From positions 1-36,155 of the IMG/VR virus record IMGVR_UViG_3300031951_000588: DNA of 36,155 bases; one strand, given 5' to 3'. The notes under the pieces are model-generated. The model was given only the letters and a program-made list of their open reading frames with translations. It was not told the DNA's origin and searched no databases. The DNA is from a virus. Positions 5,674-35,073 of the stretch are shown here, in pieces (the first letter of the stretch is position 1; the number at the start of each line of letters is the position of its first letter). The position numbers and the translations under genes are program-made.

Positions 5674-6837
5674 TTAAAAAATATAGTTGTTAATTGTTTT
5701 TTGATTTTGGTAGTAATTAAATAAAGTAAAACTGCTTTTCGTGTTTTTAAAGTTTGTTTTTACCCAATCAGATGGCGGACTAAATGCGCCAAAATTTTGA
5801 TATTCAAAAGCCGTTGAACTTGTTAAATCAAATATTAATTGATGACTGTCTCCTTTGCTAAATTCTATTTCGTAATTATGCAATTTGTACTCATCAATAT
5901 AGTTTTTAATCTTTTCTATTTGTTGCGCATCAATTTGCGCTTTAAATCCAAATTTAAGGCTTTTGTCGTCTTTGCCGTGTGTAAGTATAAAACAACGATT
6001 TTCAACGATGTAATGGTCTATAAATTTACGTTGATTAATTACGGTAACATTATCTGGATATTTTAGCTCTATGTAAGTTTTAAAAGCTGAATTAACAATA
6101 TAGCCAAAACTTCCAGCGTGATTGTCATTACAAATATTAACTACTTTTATTTCTGAATAGTATTTTACTAATTCATCAATCATTTGTATTTTAAACTTTA
6201 ACCCAATATCAAAGGCTTTTTGATTATCCATATTCTGAGGTAAAGCGTGTCCGCCTCTCGTGGTAAAACCATCAAACCCATCCATAAAATCACCTAAGTC
6301 GTTTAATAATAAAGTTTTTGACCTTTGACTTTTTACTATTTCATTTACAAAAGTCTCTAATCTTTTAAATATTTCTGTTTCATTCCAAGCACCATCATAA
6401 AGAGAATAACCGTCTTTATTTACATCCATACCAATATGAACATCAGTATAAACCGCTCTATCAAATAAACAACCATTTGCAACGTAAGGCAAAGAGTTAT
6501 TTGAGTAATATACTTTTAAAGGAGTTACTTTATCTTTAAATATAGACAAAAAATCTATATCGTCTATTGCCTTTTGTTCAGGAGTTTTAAAAAGAGGGTT
6601 TGTAACTCTTACGCTTTCGTTTTTAGTCTTTAACCACAGCATCGGAGTGTTTTCGGGTTGTATTCCTACGTTTTGACACGCTTCTAAAATACCTAAATTT
6701 TGTTGCGCTCTTAATTGATAAAGTTGATTTTGTTTGTCGGGAGTTAAACGGTAGTTTCTGTTTTCGTTTAATTCTAATCCTAATAATAAGGCTATTTCAT
6801 CTTTAATATGAAATCTTTTGTTTCCATCTTTTGCCAT
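5674..6837 (-). CDS. calcineurin-like metallophosphoesterase
   Basis: 387 residues. The metallophosphoesterase metal ligands appear in order: Asp132-x-His134 (TDVHIG), Gly182-Asp183-(x2)-Asp186 (GDFMDG), Asn239-His240 (NDNH), His287 (LTHGKD) and GDSHQ at about 329-333 in place of the usual GHxH. The family hydrolyses phosphodiester bonds using two metals; SbcD/Mre11 nucleases are members. The first 90 residues (IKDEIALLLGLELNENRNY..) are helical and may bind DNA. A DNA-processing role is likely, possibly nuclease; the substrate cannot be read. Its own promoter is just upstream at 6859-6888, beyond the small-RNA region. Confidence 0.85.
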   Translation of the reverse strand: MAKDGNKRFHIKDEIALLLGLELNENRNYRLTPDKQNQLYQLRAQQNLGILEACQNVGIQPENTPMLWLKTKNESVRVTNPLFKTPEQKAIDDIDFLSIFKDKVTPLKVYYSNNSLPYVANGCLFDRAVYTDVHIGMDVNKDGYSLYDGAWNETEIFKRLETFVNEIVKSQRSKTLLLNDLGDFMDGFDGFTTRGGHALPQNMDNQKAFDIGLKFKIQMIDELVKYYSEIKVVNICNDNHAGSFGYIVNSAFKTYIELKYPDNVTVINQRKFIDHYIVENRCFILTHGKDDKSLKFGFKAQIDAQQIEKIKNYIDEYKLHNYEIEFSKGDSHQLIFDLTSSTAFEYQNFGAFSPPSDWVKTNFKNTKSSFTLFNYYQNQKTINNYIF

Positions 6838-6858
6838 AATTTAAAGTTTTGGTTTATA

Positions 6859-6888
6859 CGAAATTACAAAAAGATTTGATATAAACAA
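6859..6888 (-). promoter_or_regulatory. promoter for the metallophosphoesterase gene
   Basis: On the minus strand TTG (6888-6886), 19 nt, TAATTTCG (6866-6859). This is the Bacteroidota promoter pattern with one mismatch in the -7 box. The predicted start, about 6852, lies some 15 nt before the ATG at 6837. The -33 part overlaps the T-tract of the terminator just upstream. Confidence 0.55.
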
Positions 6889-6913
6889 CAAAAGCACCCA
6901 AAATTTTGAGCGC
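6886..6913 (-). terminator. terminator-like hairpin ending the second small RNA
   Basis: On the minus strand GCGCTCAA (6913-6906) pairs with TTGGGTGC (6901-6894), with two G-U pairs and an AATT loop. The stem can extend through AAAG/TTTT, and the T-rich run TTTTGTTGTTT follows. It lies between promoter 6961-6991 and the promoter of the metallophosphoesterase gene. Confidence 0.6.
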
Positions 6914-6954
6914 CTTTGCCGATTAACCTAAAACCAAAAACTATGAAAAACCAT
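6886..6954 (-). ncRNA. candidate small RNA 2 (about 70 nt)
   Basis: A strong promoter (6961-6991) is followed within about 70 nt by a terminator-like hairpin, and the interval has no usable reading frame: the only ATG gives eight codons. This predicts a short free transcript or a leader attenuator for the metallophosphoesterase gene. The RNA start and end are inferred from the promoter and hairpin positions. Confidence 0.45.
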
Positions 6955-6960
6955 TCTTTT

Positions 6961-6991
6961 CAAAGTTAATAATTTATTTTGAACTACCAAA
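6961..6991 (-). promoter_or_regulatory. strong host-type promoter (TTTG-N19-TAACTTTG)
   Basis: On the minus strand TTTG (6991-6988), exactly 19 nt, TAACTTTG (6968-6961), a perfect fit to the Bacteroidota primary-sigma pattern. Its 23-bp core (6961-6983) is repeated with two mismatches at 7464-7486, so two promoters of this region are copies of one another. Confidence 0.8.
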
Positions 6992-7172
6992 TTTATTTTA
7001 TTATTTATTTTTAGATATAGCGGTGCTTTTATGCTACATTAACCAATTACTCTAAATAATTAAATTAATAAAGCATTTATAAAAGACCCTTAAACAATTA
7101 TCAAGCTAATATCTACACTTCCGAGCTACGACCATTTCTTATTTATTCAGCTTTCGCTTTGGCTTTTTCGTT

Positions 7173-7247
7173 CGGTAATTAAAATAACTCTTTCGAGAAT
7201 GTAGCACCCGTTAACAAGCTAAGTTAGAGCGGGATTTTTTATTACCG
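7173..7247. other. 75-nt inverted-repeat structure with 7-bp closing stem
   Basis: CGGTAAT (7173-7179) and ATTACCG (7241-7247) form a closing stem around two inner hairpins: CTC/GAG (about 7188-7197) and CCCG..TAAC / GTTA..CGGG (about 7207-7233). The overall size resembles a tRNA cloverleaf, but no T-loop TTCRA sits in the right arm and no anticodon arm is credible. It is either part of an RNA transcribed from 7295-7323 or a DNA-level structure. Confidence 0.4.
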
Positions 7248-7294
7248 TTAGATATAACTTTTTGCATTACTGCACCGCCTACTATTCAATCACT

Positions 7295-7323
7295 TAAATA
7301 TACGGTTCTTATTTTACAGTCAA
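7295..7323 (-). promoter_or_regulatory. possible promoter upstream of the 75-nt structure
   Basis: On the minus strand TTG (7323-7321), 18 nt, TATATTTA (7302-7295), one mismatch from TAnnTTTG. It would start an RNA near 7288 that reads through the 7173-7247 structure. No T-tract terminator was found soon after. Confidence 0.35.
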
Positions 7324-7351
7324 GAGGTAAAACTTGTTTGGATAGGTCTAT

Positions 7352-7385
7352 AAAAGAAAAATCCCTCAATCAAGCGGGTGGAGGG
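7352..7385 (-). terminator. terminator ending small RNA 1
   Basis: On the minus strand CCCTC (7385-7381) pairs with GAGGG (7367-7363) around a 13-nt loop and is followed by ATTTTTCTTTT. The stem is short but GC-rich in an AT-rich setting. Confidence 0.6.
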
Positions 7386-7457
7386 CTTAATTAAGGGTTA
7401 TCTTTTTTCTTTCAATCTTGAGAATCAGATAATCAAATCCGATTCCACCCAGATTGA
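7355..7457 (-). ncRNA. candidate structured small RNA 1 (about 100 nt)
   Basis: A perfect promoter (7464-7493) predicts a start near 7457 and a terminator ends transcription near 7355. There is no open reading frame of note between them. The RNA's 5' end can pair with its 3' part: GGGTGGA (7450-7444) with TCCACCC (7382-7376), and AATCAA/TTGATT beside it. That pairing overlaps the 5' arm of the terminator hairpin, so the two folds compete. This looks like either a stable closed-ended small RNA or an attenuator switch. Its target is unknown. Confidence 0.55.
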
Positions 7458-7463
7458 TTAAAA

Positions 7464-7493
7464 CAAAGATAATTATTTATTTTGAATATGCAA
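7464..7493 (-). promoter_or_regulatory. strong host-type promoter (TTG-N19-TATCTTTG)
   Basis: On the minus strand TTG (7493-7491), 19 nt, TATCTTTG (7471-7464), a perfect match to the Bacteroidota pattern. Its core is nearly identical to the promoter at 6961-6991 (21 of 23 positions). It lies 38 bp from the tandem repeats at 7531-7612. Confidence 0.8.
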
Positions 7494-7530
7494 CTATTTT
7501 TTTTAATTAAAAAATATGAAAAATAATTAT

Positions 7531-7612
7531 TATACCCTATATGTTATAAAAATCGATTATTCTTAACATATTATACCCTATCGGTTAAAAAAATGCGATT
7601 ATTTATACAGAT
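7531..7612. repeat. two tandem 41-bp repeats, candidate operator
   Basis: TATACCCTAT starts at 7531 and again at 7572. Each copy continues with GTTA, an A-run and a (G)CGATTATT block. Between the two, ATATGTTA (7539-7546) and TAACATAT (7564-7571) are an exact 8-bp inverted repeat 17 bp apart. The repeat lies just upstream of promoter 7464-7493, and its period is about four helical turns. It is a good candidate for a regulator-binding site; an origin iteron is the alternative. Confidence 0.6.
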
Positions 7613-7707
7613 GTAAACGTTTGTTATTTTATACAAAAAATACATTTTTGCGTGTAATAACCATCACAAATATTGATTTTCGGCTTTTGTGTTTGTTTTA
7701 AATGGCA
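7613..7707. other. rest of the gene-free region 6838-7707 next to the endolysin stop
   Basis: AT-rich DNA downstream of the endolysin stop. It has one weak inverted repeat (GTTATT near 7660 with AATAAC near 7624) but no clear terminator with a T-tract and no reading frame above about 16 codons on either strand. The remaining parts of the 870-bp gap are listed separately as promoters, RNAs and repeats. Confidence 0.5.
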
Positions 7708-8169
7708 TTACTTAAAATACAATTCCGCTTCTTTTGTGCGTCTTCTCGTTAAACCGTTTAAAACTTTACCCGCTTGTTTATTCCATTTTAGAAATTCATT
7801 CTTAATTGTTTGGTCGCTTGGATTGGCATTTACTTTTTTAAGTAGTGTACTTATTTTAAAAGCACCTAAGCCAATATTATAAGCAATCGACACCAAAGCA
7901 TTAAACTGATTTTGTGTTACGTTAGAAGTTACTAAACTATCAACTTTCAAGGCGAAGTTGTCCGCTACGTGCTTTAAATATTCGGTAGCTTGTGCTTTGG
8001 TTATAGCTTTGTCAGTTATTTTTACTTTTGTGCCGTTTGGATAAAAAGTGTTTCCGTAGCCAATTGTTACTATTCCCTTTGATTTTTCCTCTGCCGTAGC
8101 GTAATAAGGCACTAAAGACAATCCCTCAAACTCAGCTATTAAATCAAGTCCTTTTTTGTCTAATTTCAT
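7708..8169 (-). CDS. endolysin, GH24 (T4-type) lysozyme
   Basis: 153 residues. EFEGLSLVPYY carries the catalytic Glu15, and VTIGYGNTFYPNG (from Val34) carries the conserved Thr35 and the TIGYG strand; the later INQ/NALVSIAYNIG-like helix (QNQFNALVSIAYNIG) is also typical. It cleaves the MurNAc-GlcNAc bond of peptidoglycan. The aspartate usually found about nine residues after the Glu is not present here (YYATAEE), as in some phage members with an altered triad. No signal peptide is present, so export depends on a holin. It overlaps the 137-aa membrane protein gene by 4 nt. Confidence 0.92.
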   Translation of the reverse strand: MKLDKKGLDLIAEFEGLSLVPYYATAEEKSKGIVTIGYGNTFYPNGTKVKITDKAITKAQATEYLKHVADNFALKVDSLVTSNVTQNQFNALVSIAYNIGLGAFKISTLLKKVNANPSDQTIKNEFLKWNKQAGKVLNGLTRRRTKEAELYFK

Positions 8170-27362: not shown

Positions 27363-27380
27363 AAAAACAAAGTTAAACAA

Positions 27381-27767
27381 TTACTTTGAACTTTGCAAAT
27401 TTATTTTAACCAACTCACAACTTGGATTCTTCACAAACCATTCAAGGAAATCATCATCAATAGCTTGTACATTATCTTTGATTAAGTCTTGGTCTGTTGT
27501 TAGGATGATTTTTTTCCATTGGTCATTTCTTTGATGTGTTCCACGATGTTTTTCAAATTGTCCACATAAAACAGATTCTATATCTGTTATGATACACCAA
27601 TCTCCTTGTTTAATTTCTTCATCAGAAGTGATGTAGATGTTTTGGTTAGTATAAGAATCATTTTTACTTGCAGTTGCACTTTGTACTAATCCTAATACAA
27701 AATTTCCATTGTTTCCAATTCTTAACCTACTTGGTTTGTCTGTTTGGATTACGTGTAAATTTTTCAT
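27381..27767 (-). CDS. conserved hypothetical phage protein, 128 aa
   Basis: MKNLHVIQTDKPSRLRIGNN, then NIYITSDEEIKQGDWCI, then KKIILTTDQDLIKDNVQAID and FLEWFVKNPSCELVKI. This is a pattern I recognise from a family of conserved proteins found in many Bacteroidota phages and mobile elements, with no assigned function. The predicted fold is alpha/beta with a Trp/Cys-rich core. It overlaps the 121-aa gene stop-start (ATGA) and is followed at short spacing by the 74-aa gene. Confidence 0.75.
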   Translation of the reverse strand: MKNLHVIQTDKPSRLRIGNNGNFVLGLVQSATASKNDSYTNQNIYITSDEEIKQGDWCIITDIESVLCGQFEKHRGTHQRNDQWKKIILTTDQDLIKDNVQAIDDDFLEWFVKNPSCELVKINLQSSK

Positions 27768-32385: not shown

Positions 32386-32416
32386 CAAAGTTACAAAATA
32401 ATATCTACTTTGCAAA
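32386..32416 (-). promoter_or_regulatory. strong host-type promoter of the replication operon
   Basis: On the minus strand TTTG (32416-32413), 19 nt, TAACTTTG (32393-32386). It matches the Bacteroidota promoter pattern without mismatch. It overlaps the last codons of the 38-aa gene and serves the 67-aa, initiator, loader, helicase and ninG genes. Confidence 0.82.
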
Positions 32417-33768: not shown

Positions 33769-35073
33769 TTATTTATTTAAGTTTTTATATTTTTCCATTC
33801 CTTTTTGTTTCAATATGTTTTTATCCTGACTTCTTGAACAACTCATATAAGTAAGTCCAAAATCATTTTTCATTATAGTTATACAGACAGCTTTCCAATT
33901 TGGGCAATGTCTAAAAGGAGTTGAATTTTCAATATCAATTTCATCTGGCCAATCCCCTTTTATTTTTATTATTTCATAAATATCCTCTTTTTTACAAAGC
34001 TTACTTATTTCTCCAGTTCTTTCTATTTCTACCCCGTGATTTTGAATAGCCTTTATTACTCTTGGATTTCTACCGTATCCTTTTTCTTTCCAGCTTTTCA
34101 TATATCTATCTAAATGATACTCAAACTTTTTTTTTACATTATTTGGTAAAGTTGTAATTAAAAATTCAGCATATTGTTTCCATGTAAAATGATTTGGCTT
34201 TGTTATATTTCTCCATCCCATAGCAACAGTTCCACCATAAATACCGCCAAAATTACAACCATTTACACGCCCTACCATTTTACCCCAATTGTTAGGGTCT
34301 ATTACCTTATACAGCTTTAAATTTTCTTGACCGCTTAAGTGAAAAGGACTTGCAACTCTCATTTGGTCTATTGTTAACCCAGCCAAATAATACAAATCAT
34401 AAATTTTATTGTAATCCCAATTATATTTATTATTAGCAATCCATATATCTTCGGTTTTCCAATCATAAATAGGATAAAAATTAATTGTATTTTTATCTAC
34501 AATTTTAGAATATCTTAAACCTTTATGCATATGTTTTCTATGTTGAGAAGTAAAAATACCTCTACGGGTTAAGCTTTCATCAGCACGAATACCAATCAAA
34601 ACAGCGGTTTTACCGTATTTTTCCCCAAACCATTTACTAAAATGTATCCTTGCGTCAAAACCCTTTGTGCCTTTAATAAACTTATAAGGGCAATTGTCCT
34701 CGTTAATAACATAGTCATAGTTAGGCATATCTCTAACCCAAATATCTTTTTTATCTTTATCCCAAGGTATCCATCTTGGTTCGTACATTGAAACAGAACA
34801 AGCCGCAGATATAGGTAAACATAGCCAATATTTACGCTCAATTTCTAAATACTTAAACATTCTATCCGCGTATTCATCAGTATATTTATAACCTGCTTCA
34901 TAGTCTTCATAATACATAGCTAATTTATGAAGTAAATTATTTTTTTTAGCATAGTCATAAGCTTGATTAAGCATAACTCCACTATCTTTACCGCAAGAAA
35001 AAGCTACTAAAACATTATCAAAGTCATTAAAAATAACTTCCAATCTTTTTTCTGTTGCTTCGTAAACATTCAT
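33769..35073 (-). CDS. ibrA: IbrA-like PP-loop (PAPS-reductase-like, DUF3440) protein, 434 aa
   Basis: The PP-loop SCGKDSG at about 26-32 is the ATP pyrophosphatase motif. Further family marks are ADESLTRRGIFTSQHRKHM (about 175-195), YPIYDWKTEDIW (about 207-218) and the C-terminal DUF3440 region with FRHCPNWKAVCITIM. Relatives activate sulfate or thiolate substrates, and DndC of DNA phosphorothioation belongs to the same superfamily. It is followed by an IbrB-like gene 2 nt away. A DNA or RNA modification, or regulatory, role is possible; the ligand is unknown. Confidence 0.88.
   Translation of the reverse strand: MNVYEATEKRLEVIFNDFDNVLVAFSCGKDSGVMLNQAYDYAKKNNLLHKLAMYYEDYEAGYKYTDEYADRMFKYLEIERKYWLCLPISAACSVSMYEPRWIPWDKDKKDIWVRDMPNYDYVINEDNCPYKFIKGTKGFDARIHFSKWFGEKYGKTAVLIGIRADESLTRRGIFTSQHRKHMHKGLRYSKIVDKNTINFYPIYDWKTEDIWIANNKYNWDYNKIYDLYYLAGLTIDQMRVASPFHLSGQENLKLYKVIDPNNWGKMVGRVNGCNFGGIYGGTVAMGWRNITKPNHFTWKQYAEFLITTLPNNVKKKFEYHLDRYMKSWKEKGYGRNPRVIKAIQNHGVEIERTGEISKLCKKEDIYEIIKIKGDWPDEIDIENSTPFRHCPNWKAVCITIMKNDFGLTYMSCSRSQDKNILKQKGMEKYKNLNK

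Follow-up and report, generated by a model that had tools for sequence, protein, structure and literature searches.

The window analysed here, a virus record, spans 36,155 bases, and its genes lie on the minus strand. In its terminase it shares 75% identity with Flavobacterium phages belonging to the genus Muminvirus, which are lytic siphoviruses infecting Flavobacterium strains LMO6/LMO9 (PMC7077304), and its first early gene shows likeness to a Cellulophaga phage gene. The virus is best explained as a siphovirus akin to the Flavobacterium muminviruses, and its host is probably Flavobacterium. Read along the minus strand, the structural and tail genes are followed by a lysozyme gene (7708-8169), a gap at 6838-7707 and an early operon, in which the gene for an exonuclease-like protein (5674-6837) comes first and which also encodes a methylase, an Erf annealing protein and SSB. 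No counterpart of gene 5674-6837 was found among 396 Bacteroidota genomes. Elsewhere in the window, at 33769-35073 on the minus strand, a PAPS reductase-like gene adjoins a ParB-like gene (PHROGs); roles in DNA modification or host takeover are possible for these genes.

The gap is, exactly as an earlier note on this DNA had stated, a gene-free island of 870 bp; it is the largest gap in the window, the next being 328 bp. Its longest reading frames comprise 24 codons (ATG start) and 27 codons (TTG or GTG start), and hence the upper limit of about 18 codons given in that note was slightly low, but no plausible gene is present. A search for tRNA/tmRNA gave nothing, Rfam produced zero matches at the gathering threshold, and blastn of the island against cultured phages and plasmids returned short, weak matches only; the corresponding islands of two other phages (L463 and L461, see below) gave nothing usable by blastn either. 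A generic scan for sigma-70 promoters and terminators yielded counts not above those of shuffles, so it is conservation and the Bacteroidota promoter type that give the signals their significance. When the Bacteroidota-type pattern TTTG-N18-21-TAnnTTTG was used, nine perfect promoters were found in the window, compared with 2.6 expected from shuffles.

Three of the promoters proposed by the earlier note within the gap, all on the minus strand, are retained in our analysis. The one at 6961..6991, which precedes a predicted RNA that we call RNA1, is a perfect match to the Bacteroidota consensus (TTTG-N19-TAACTTTG). The one at about 7464..7494, preceding RNA2, had also been called perfect (at 7464-7493) but is near-perfect (TTG-N19-TATCTTTG); TATCTTTG is kept in a related phage, L292, and TATATTTG occupies the same place in L452, L461, L463 and L477. 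The promoter of early gene 5674-6837, at 6859..6888 (TAATTTCG), is near-perfect as claimed, with one mismatch in the -7 box, and TAnnTTTG stands at the matching position in five relatives (L005, L006, L009, L058 and L079). The weak promoter proposed at 7295-7323 was not confirmed; the site overlaps a conserved GNRA hairpin, the L452 and L463 sequences are not promoter-like there, and it more likely belongs to the structure of a third RNA, RNA3. Both terminator hairpins are real (6921-6886, 16 pairs, and 7397-7363, 13 pairs). The idea of an early RNA region that yields two or more small RNAs, sized at about 70 and 100 nt, gained support from covariation and from homologues in other phages, and the boundaries given were close to ours, but the count is three: a conserved structured RNA at 7345-7003 was absent from the list. 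Of two further perfect TTTG-N19-20-TAACTTTG sites on the minus strand of the window, at 27368-27399 and 32386-32416, one falls between genes and the other where a gene begins; both are likely early promoters.

RNA2 (about 7352..7462, minus strand), of approximately 105 nt, has a fold z of -5.84 (0/200 dinucleotide shuffles). Its terminator hairpin (7363..7397) is made of 13 pairs followed by a U run, and its loop includes CCACCC (7381-7376). The 5' segment AAUCAA-UCU-GGGUGG (7445..7459) is pairable with 7381-7376 and with 7373-7368. RNA2 is 87% identical in L292, and the L452 lineage (L452, L461, L463 and L477) shows the same anatomy. Between the 5' segment and the terminator loop, the paired bases are GGGUGG:CCACCC (window), GCGUGG:CCACGC (L292), GGGUGC:GCACCC (L461) and GGCUGC:GCAGCC (L463), and the inner pair of the terminator is, in the same order, C-G, U-A, A-U and A-U. 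Across these sequences (n = 4), 13/13 pairs of the terminator plus loop pairing are kept (100% of cells), four of them by double changes, and no shuffle attains the covariation score. An extended form, in which AAUCAA-N3-GGGUGG pairs with CCACCC-N2-UUGAUU, also keeps 12/12 pairs in the four sequences at constant spacing; this long-range helix includes four compensatory pairs, and 0/500 shuffles scored as high.

Because the extended form takes up the 3' arm of the terminator, the two forms of RNA2 are mutually exclusive; of these, the terminator form has the greater stability, by 13.6, 9.8, 5.4 and 2.9 kcal/mol. Since the 5' segment can pair with the terminator loop or, more fully, with the 3' arm, a switch is likely, and we propose that RNA2 is probably a terminator switch. 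Alternatively, the 5' pairing might form a loop-loop pseudoknot. The comparisons for RNA2 and RNA3 draw on few independent sequences from two lineages, with four distinct RNA2 sequences. A search with the exact RNA2 pattern found none. Two known kinds of RNA were considered for RNA2 and rejected. For 6S RNA (6S-Flavo, RF01685) there was no covariance-model match even at E<=10. For a CRISPR-repeat mimic (a solitary repeat acting as an RNA anti-CRISPR), CRISPR-DR45 scored 19.7 bits against a cut-off of 37, and neither L292 nor the L452 lineage retains the CRISPR-type ATTGAAAG 3' handle.

Directly downstream lies RNA3 (about 7003..7345, minus strand), of approximately 340 nt, with several GNRA-type loops and a probable pseudoknot. 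In its 5' hairpin, which has a GUGA loop (7283..7305), 97.5% of cells are paired and two pairs are compensatory; it is this hairpin that the weak promoter of the earlier note overlaps. The consensus structure from alignment A5 contains 60 pairs with 95% of cells paired, versus 30-43% in slid controls. In this alignment the stem CUC-GAAA-GAG is changed to CC-GAAA-GG, and the crossing (pseudoknot) arm CGGUAAU:AUUACCG to CGGUUGUA:UACAACUG; one GNRA stem is a base pair longer in L292. The covariation is modest because there are two lineages only and much of the core is invariant. Taken whole, RNA3 folds no better than shuffled sequence. No Rfam family, including GOLLD, ROOL and OLE, matched the RNA3 of the window, L292 or L463 above threshold. 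Drum RNA (RF02958) was rejected at 14.1 bits (E=2.8, cut-off 43 bits) with part of RNA3 covered, and a pattern for the 3' domain was found in L292 only, apart from two GC-rich coding matches. No conserved promoter of its own was seen for RNA3, which may be made by read-through from the RNA2 promoter. The predicted RNA2 and RNA3 are unclassified, neither matching any Rfam family.

L292, a relative found via its tail protein, has a peptidase M15 lysin unlike that of the window, yet it carries the whole island. Its RNA3 stretch is 96.6% identical to that of the window over 351 columns, and identity at 7399-7000 is 94-100%, versus 52-86% in the adjacent gene. That RNA3 is better conserved than the adjacent gene points to an important function for it in phages. 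The RNA3 stretch is 75-78% identical in L452, L461, L463, L477 and L469. There too the cassette has lysis genes (peptidase M15) on one side and early genes (NinG, Mom) on the other, and RNA3 follows a promoter and a counterpart of RNA2. The RNA2-RNA3 pair is present in two phage lineages with differing genes and lysins. It is absent from the Muminvirus genomes, and a search for it in 198 Bacteroidota genomes gave just three matches of about 30 nt.

RNA1 (6882..6954, minus strand), of approximately 73 nt, consists of an unpaired 5' part, UUUUUCAUAGU...AGGUUAAU, and a terminator hairpin (6886..6921) of 16 pairs with a loop of 4 and a U-rich tail; its fold z is -5.1 relative to dinucleotide shuffles (0/200). 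A diverged homologue in L292 has an altered terminator sequence but retains the hairpin. The covariance model of FopS (RF04319) matches RNA1 end to end at 27.4 bits (E=0.084 over all families, at a permissive threshold), the alignment begins where the RNA1 promoter predicts the start, and the 30-nt 5' block aligned by cmscan holds the conserved R1 seed region of FopS. The E-values of RF04319 look calibrated, as 11 genomes with weak matches only were found at E<=0.05 compared with about 15 expected (n=297). FopS RNAs of Bacteroides use their 5' seed to pair with susC mRNA start regions and are bound by the RRM protein RbpB, and one Bacteroides phage copy is on record (PMC11697453). FopS of B. 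thetaiotaomicron and RNA1 are alike in their size (about 70 nt), in the consensus sigma-ABfr promoter, which in RNA1 too lies directly upstream, in an unpaired 5' part with UUUUUCAU.GU...AGGUUAA, in having the terminator as the sole hairpin and in a seed complementary to AUGAAAA start regions. RNA1 differs in its score, which is below the gathering cut-off of 56 bits, in being present as a single copy in the window where FopS has many paralogous copies per genome, in a U-richer linker, and in being borne by a phage with a Flavobacterium-type host. GibS of B. thetaiotaomicron is reported to have the R1 seed in common with FopS and to be bound by RbpB, but it has a second seed, R2, and another promoter (PMC11697453). 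Because of the low score and the lack of paralogy, we do not file RNA1 as a member of FopS; our verdict is that it is FopS-like in its predicted action but outside RF04319.

The antisense action suggested by the earlier note fits RNA1, the seed of which is a FopS-type anti-start-codon sequence. The 5' part of RNA1 scored -15.95 with 29 susC start regions (-12.9 for shuffles, sd 0.85) and -14.7 with 41 other gene starts (-12.5 for shuffles, sd 0.7), i.e., about 3-3.6 sd above shuffled RNA1. This complementarity supports anti-start-codon action in general, with putative targets among start regions at large. A preference for susC was not supported (p=0.11). Phage gene 2623-2817 ranked first among 56 start regions (-26.1 kcal/mol, p=0.04), but as a candidate target it is too weak. 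An RRM_1 protein is present in 3 of the 6 Bacteroidota genomes having FopS-like RNAs. Nothing in our analysis speaks for the other roles that had been offered for the region, the sponging of host factors and the control of late transcription. RNA1 is absent from the L452 lineage, and therefore it need not act together with RNA2 and RNA3.

Similar RNAs were found in other phages. Among 114 related-phage loci, 17 of 46 sites with a promoter and the seed TTTCAT have a terminator (the window and one duplicate among them), versus 3 of 29 with the reversed seed. A scan of the collection with the pattern TATATTTG-N0-8-TTTTCATA-N10-30-GGTTA returned 75 viral stretches, about 40 of which show promoter, seed, GGTTA and diverse terminators. 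These comprise at least 15 distinct sequences, and RNA1-like RNAs occur in no fewer than 15 phage lineages besides that of the window. A sequence model, R1, was built from 22 other RNAs with the window left out; RNAalifold gave zero pairs in the MAFFT alignment A1, and for this reason the model is sequence-only. It finds RNA1 at 25.2 bits (E=6.2e-7) as the sole strong match in the window, above the best non-FopS match (23.6 bits) in 198 Bacteroidota genomes, in a test that is partly circular because the seed used to collect part of the set came from FopS and the window. The Muminvirus genomes gave no R1 match, and the strict seed had no match among genome contigs. FopS-like anti-start-codon RNAs with diverse terminators were seen at viral loci L302-L374, L282-L288 and L333, the last (a 349-kb contig) being nearest to the window in its seed (UUUUUCAUAGUUUUUAGGUUUUUAGGUUAG). 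Phage-type FopS-like RNAs (UUUUCAUAAUUU...GGUUA plus terminator) also occur in the Bacteroidota chromosomes L376, L382, L383, L394, L397, L406 and L408.

We consider it likely that the gap is a cassette of non-coding RNAs placed where the late genes (structural and lysis) give way to the early operon. Comparison among phages shows the sequences, structures, promoters and terminators of these predicted RNAs to be under selection. In our proposed scheme, the host polymerase would transcribe RNA1 from its consensus promoter, and the unpaired 5' part would pair with TTAACC...ACUAUGAAAA-type regions at which translation starts, so that RNA1 would act in trans to repress translation, probably with a host RRM protein. 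The 5' segment of RNA2 would alternate between its two partners in the probable switch, and RNA3 would be a new compact structured RNA, probably produced by read-through. A further-reaching interpretation, which we put forward tentatively and with more doubt than confidence, is that RNA2 and RNA3 make up a two-part RNA system, new and belonging to phages of Bacteroidota, and that RNA1 is a member of a widespread class of phage RNAs usurping the FopS-type translational control of the host. The self-pairing terminator switch would then decide if the pseudoknotted RNA of approximately 340 nt is made, and RNA3 would itself be active in catalysis, as a scaffold or in binding factors.

One could envision several alternatives. 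The gap might be an ordinary control region, made up of early promoters, repeats that bind a regulator and a terminator serving the late operon, with no functional RNAs. The site is indeed the late/early junction, and it holds two 26-nt direct repeats (7528..7594; TATTATACCCTAT..GTTA), a conserved DNA element that may comprise regulator, origin or packaging sites. Similar repeats (GATAGGGTATAATATG-like) occur in the same gap of L004, L006, L079 and L268, all of which are without RNA2 and RNA3, and the early promoter is likewise kept in relatives lacking the pair. We think that this explanation is unlikely, as it does not account for 340 nt at 94-100% identity, for the compensatory changes in RNA2 or for the RNA2-RNA3 pair in a second lineage. 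It is similarly unlikely that RNA1 is a leader or attenuator of early gene 5674-6837 and not a trans-acting RNA. RNA1 shares the strand of that gene and lies 49 nt ahead of the start codon, and the RNA1 hairpin could stop transcription; against this, the gene has its own promoter, which overlaps the RNA1 terminator, and RNA1-like RNAs are sited elsewhere in other phages, e.g., after lysis genes in L277 and L282-L288.

Another explanation is that the conserved core functions as DNA, as a replication origin or a packaging or recombination site. The very high identity, the repeats close by and the muminvirus records, which begin and end at the corresponding site behind the lysis gene, would all be in keeping with such an element. 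We regard it as improbable given the paired changes that preserve base pairing, the GNRA loops, and promoters and terminators that all lie on one strand. The likeness of RNA1 to FopS might also be due to chance, the complement of RNA1 resembling a common start region. Weak RF04319 or seed matches antisense of gene starts were in fact seen in Bacteroidota genomes L257, L259, L260 and L264-L267, several of them beside a terminator, and give rise to false FopS calls. When at most three mismatches to the window seed were allowed, four genome matches appeared; all were antisense of gene starts and were rejected likewise. The seed alone, therefore, proves little, and promoter, seed and terminator are needed together. 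At RNA1 the antisense frame is just 8 codons long, the promoter and terminator are at the correct spacing, the full promoter, seed and terminator pattern occurs once in the window and in 0/300 shuffled windows, and a homologue exists in L292, all of which makes a chance likeness a poor prospect. A degraded protein gene, the possibility that the earlier note had set against its own reading, is scarcely credible: no supporting point was found, and it is excluded by frames of at most 27 codons, by L292 and relatives without a protein-coding homologue here and by an island kept as non-coding sequence in other phages.

Among known systems, terminator-based attenuators are the general kind to which the putative RNA2 switch may be likened, in that its 5' segment pairs with its own terminator arm, although in RNA2 the terminator form is the more stable. 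Some ornate RNAs of the GOLLD, ROOL and OLE types are carried by phages. These large, structured RNAs (PMC12286853) are the nearest kind for RNA3, which differs from them in being shorter, in having no Rfam match and in being paired with RNA2.

The control of nutrient uptake by FopS has been described in Bacteroides. That FopS-like RNAs occur in many phages, and also in some Bacteroidota genomes from outside Bacteroides, suggests that RNAs pairing with start codons form a class spanning the phylum, carried by phages too, and this gives testable targets in Flavobacterium. To our knowledge, small RNAs encoded by Flavobacterium phages have hardly been studied. A perfect FopS 5' region was also observed near the genome end of Bacteroides phage BX-TP2 (PQ571285.1 44811-44851), where it may represent a phage FopS or an attachment site.
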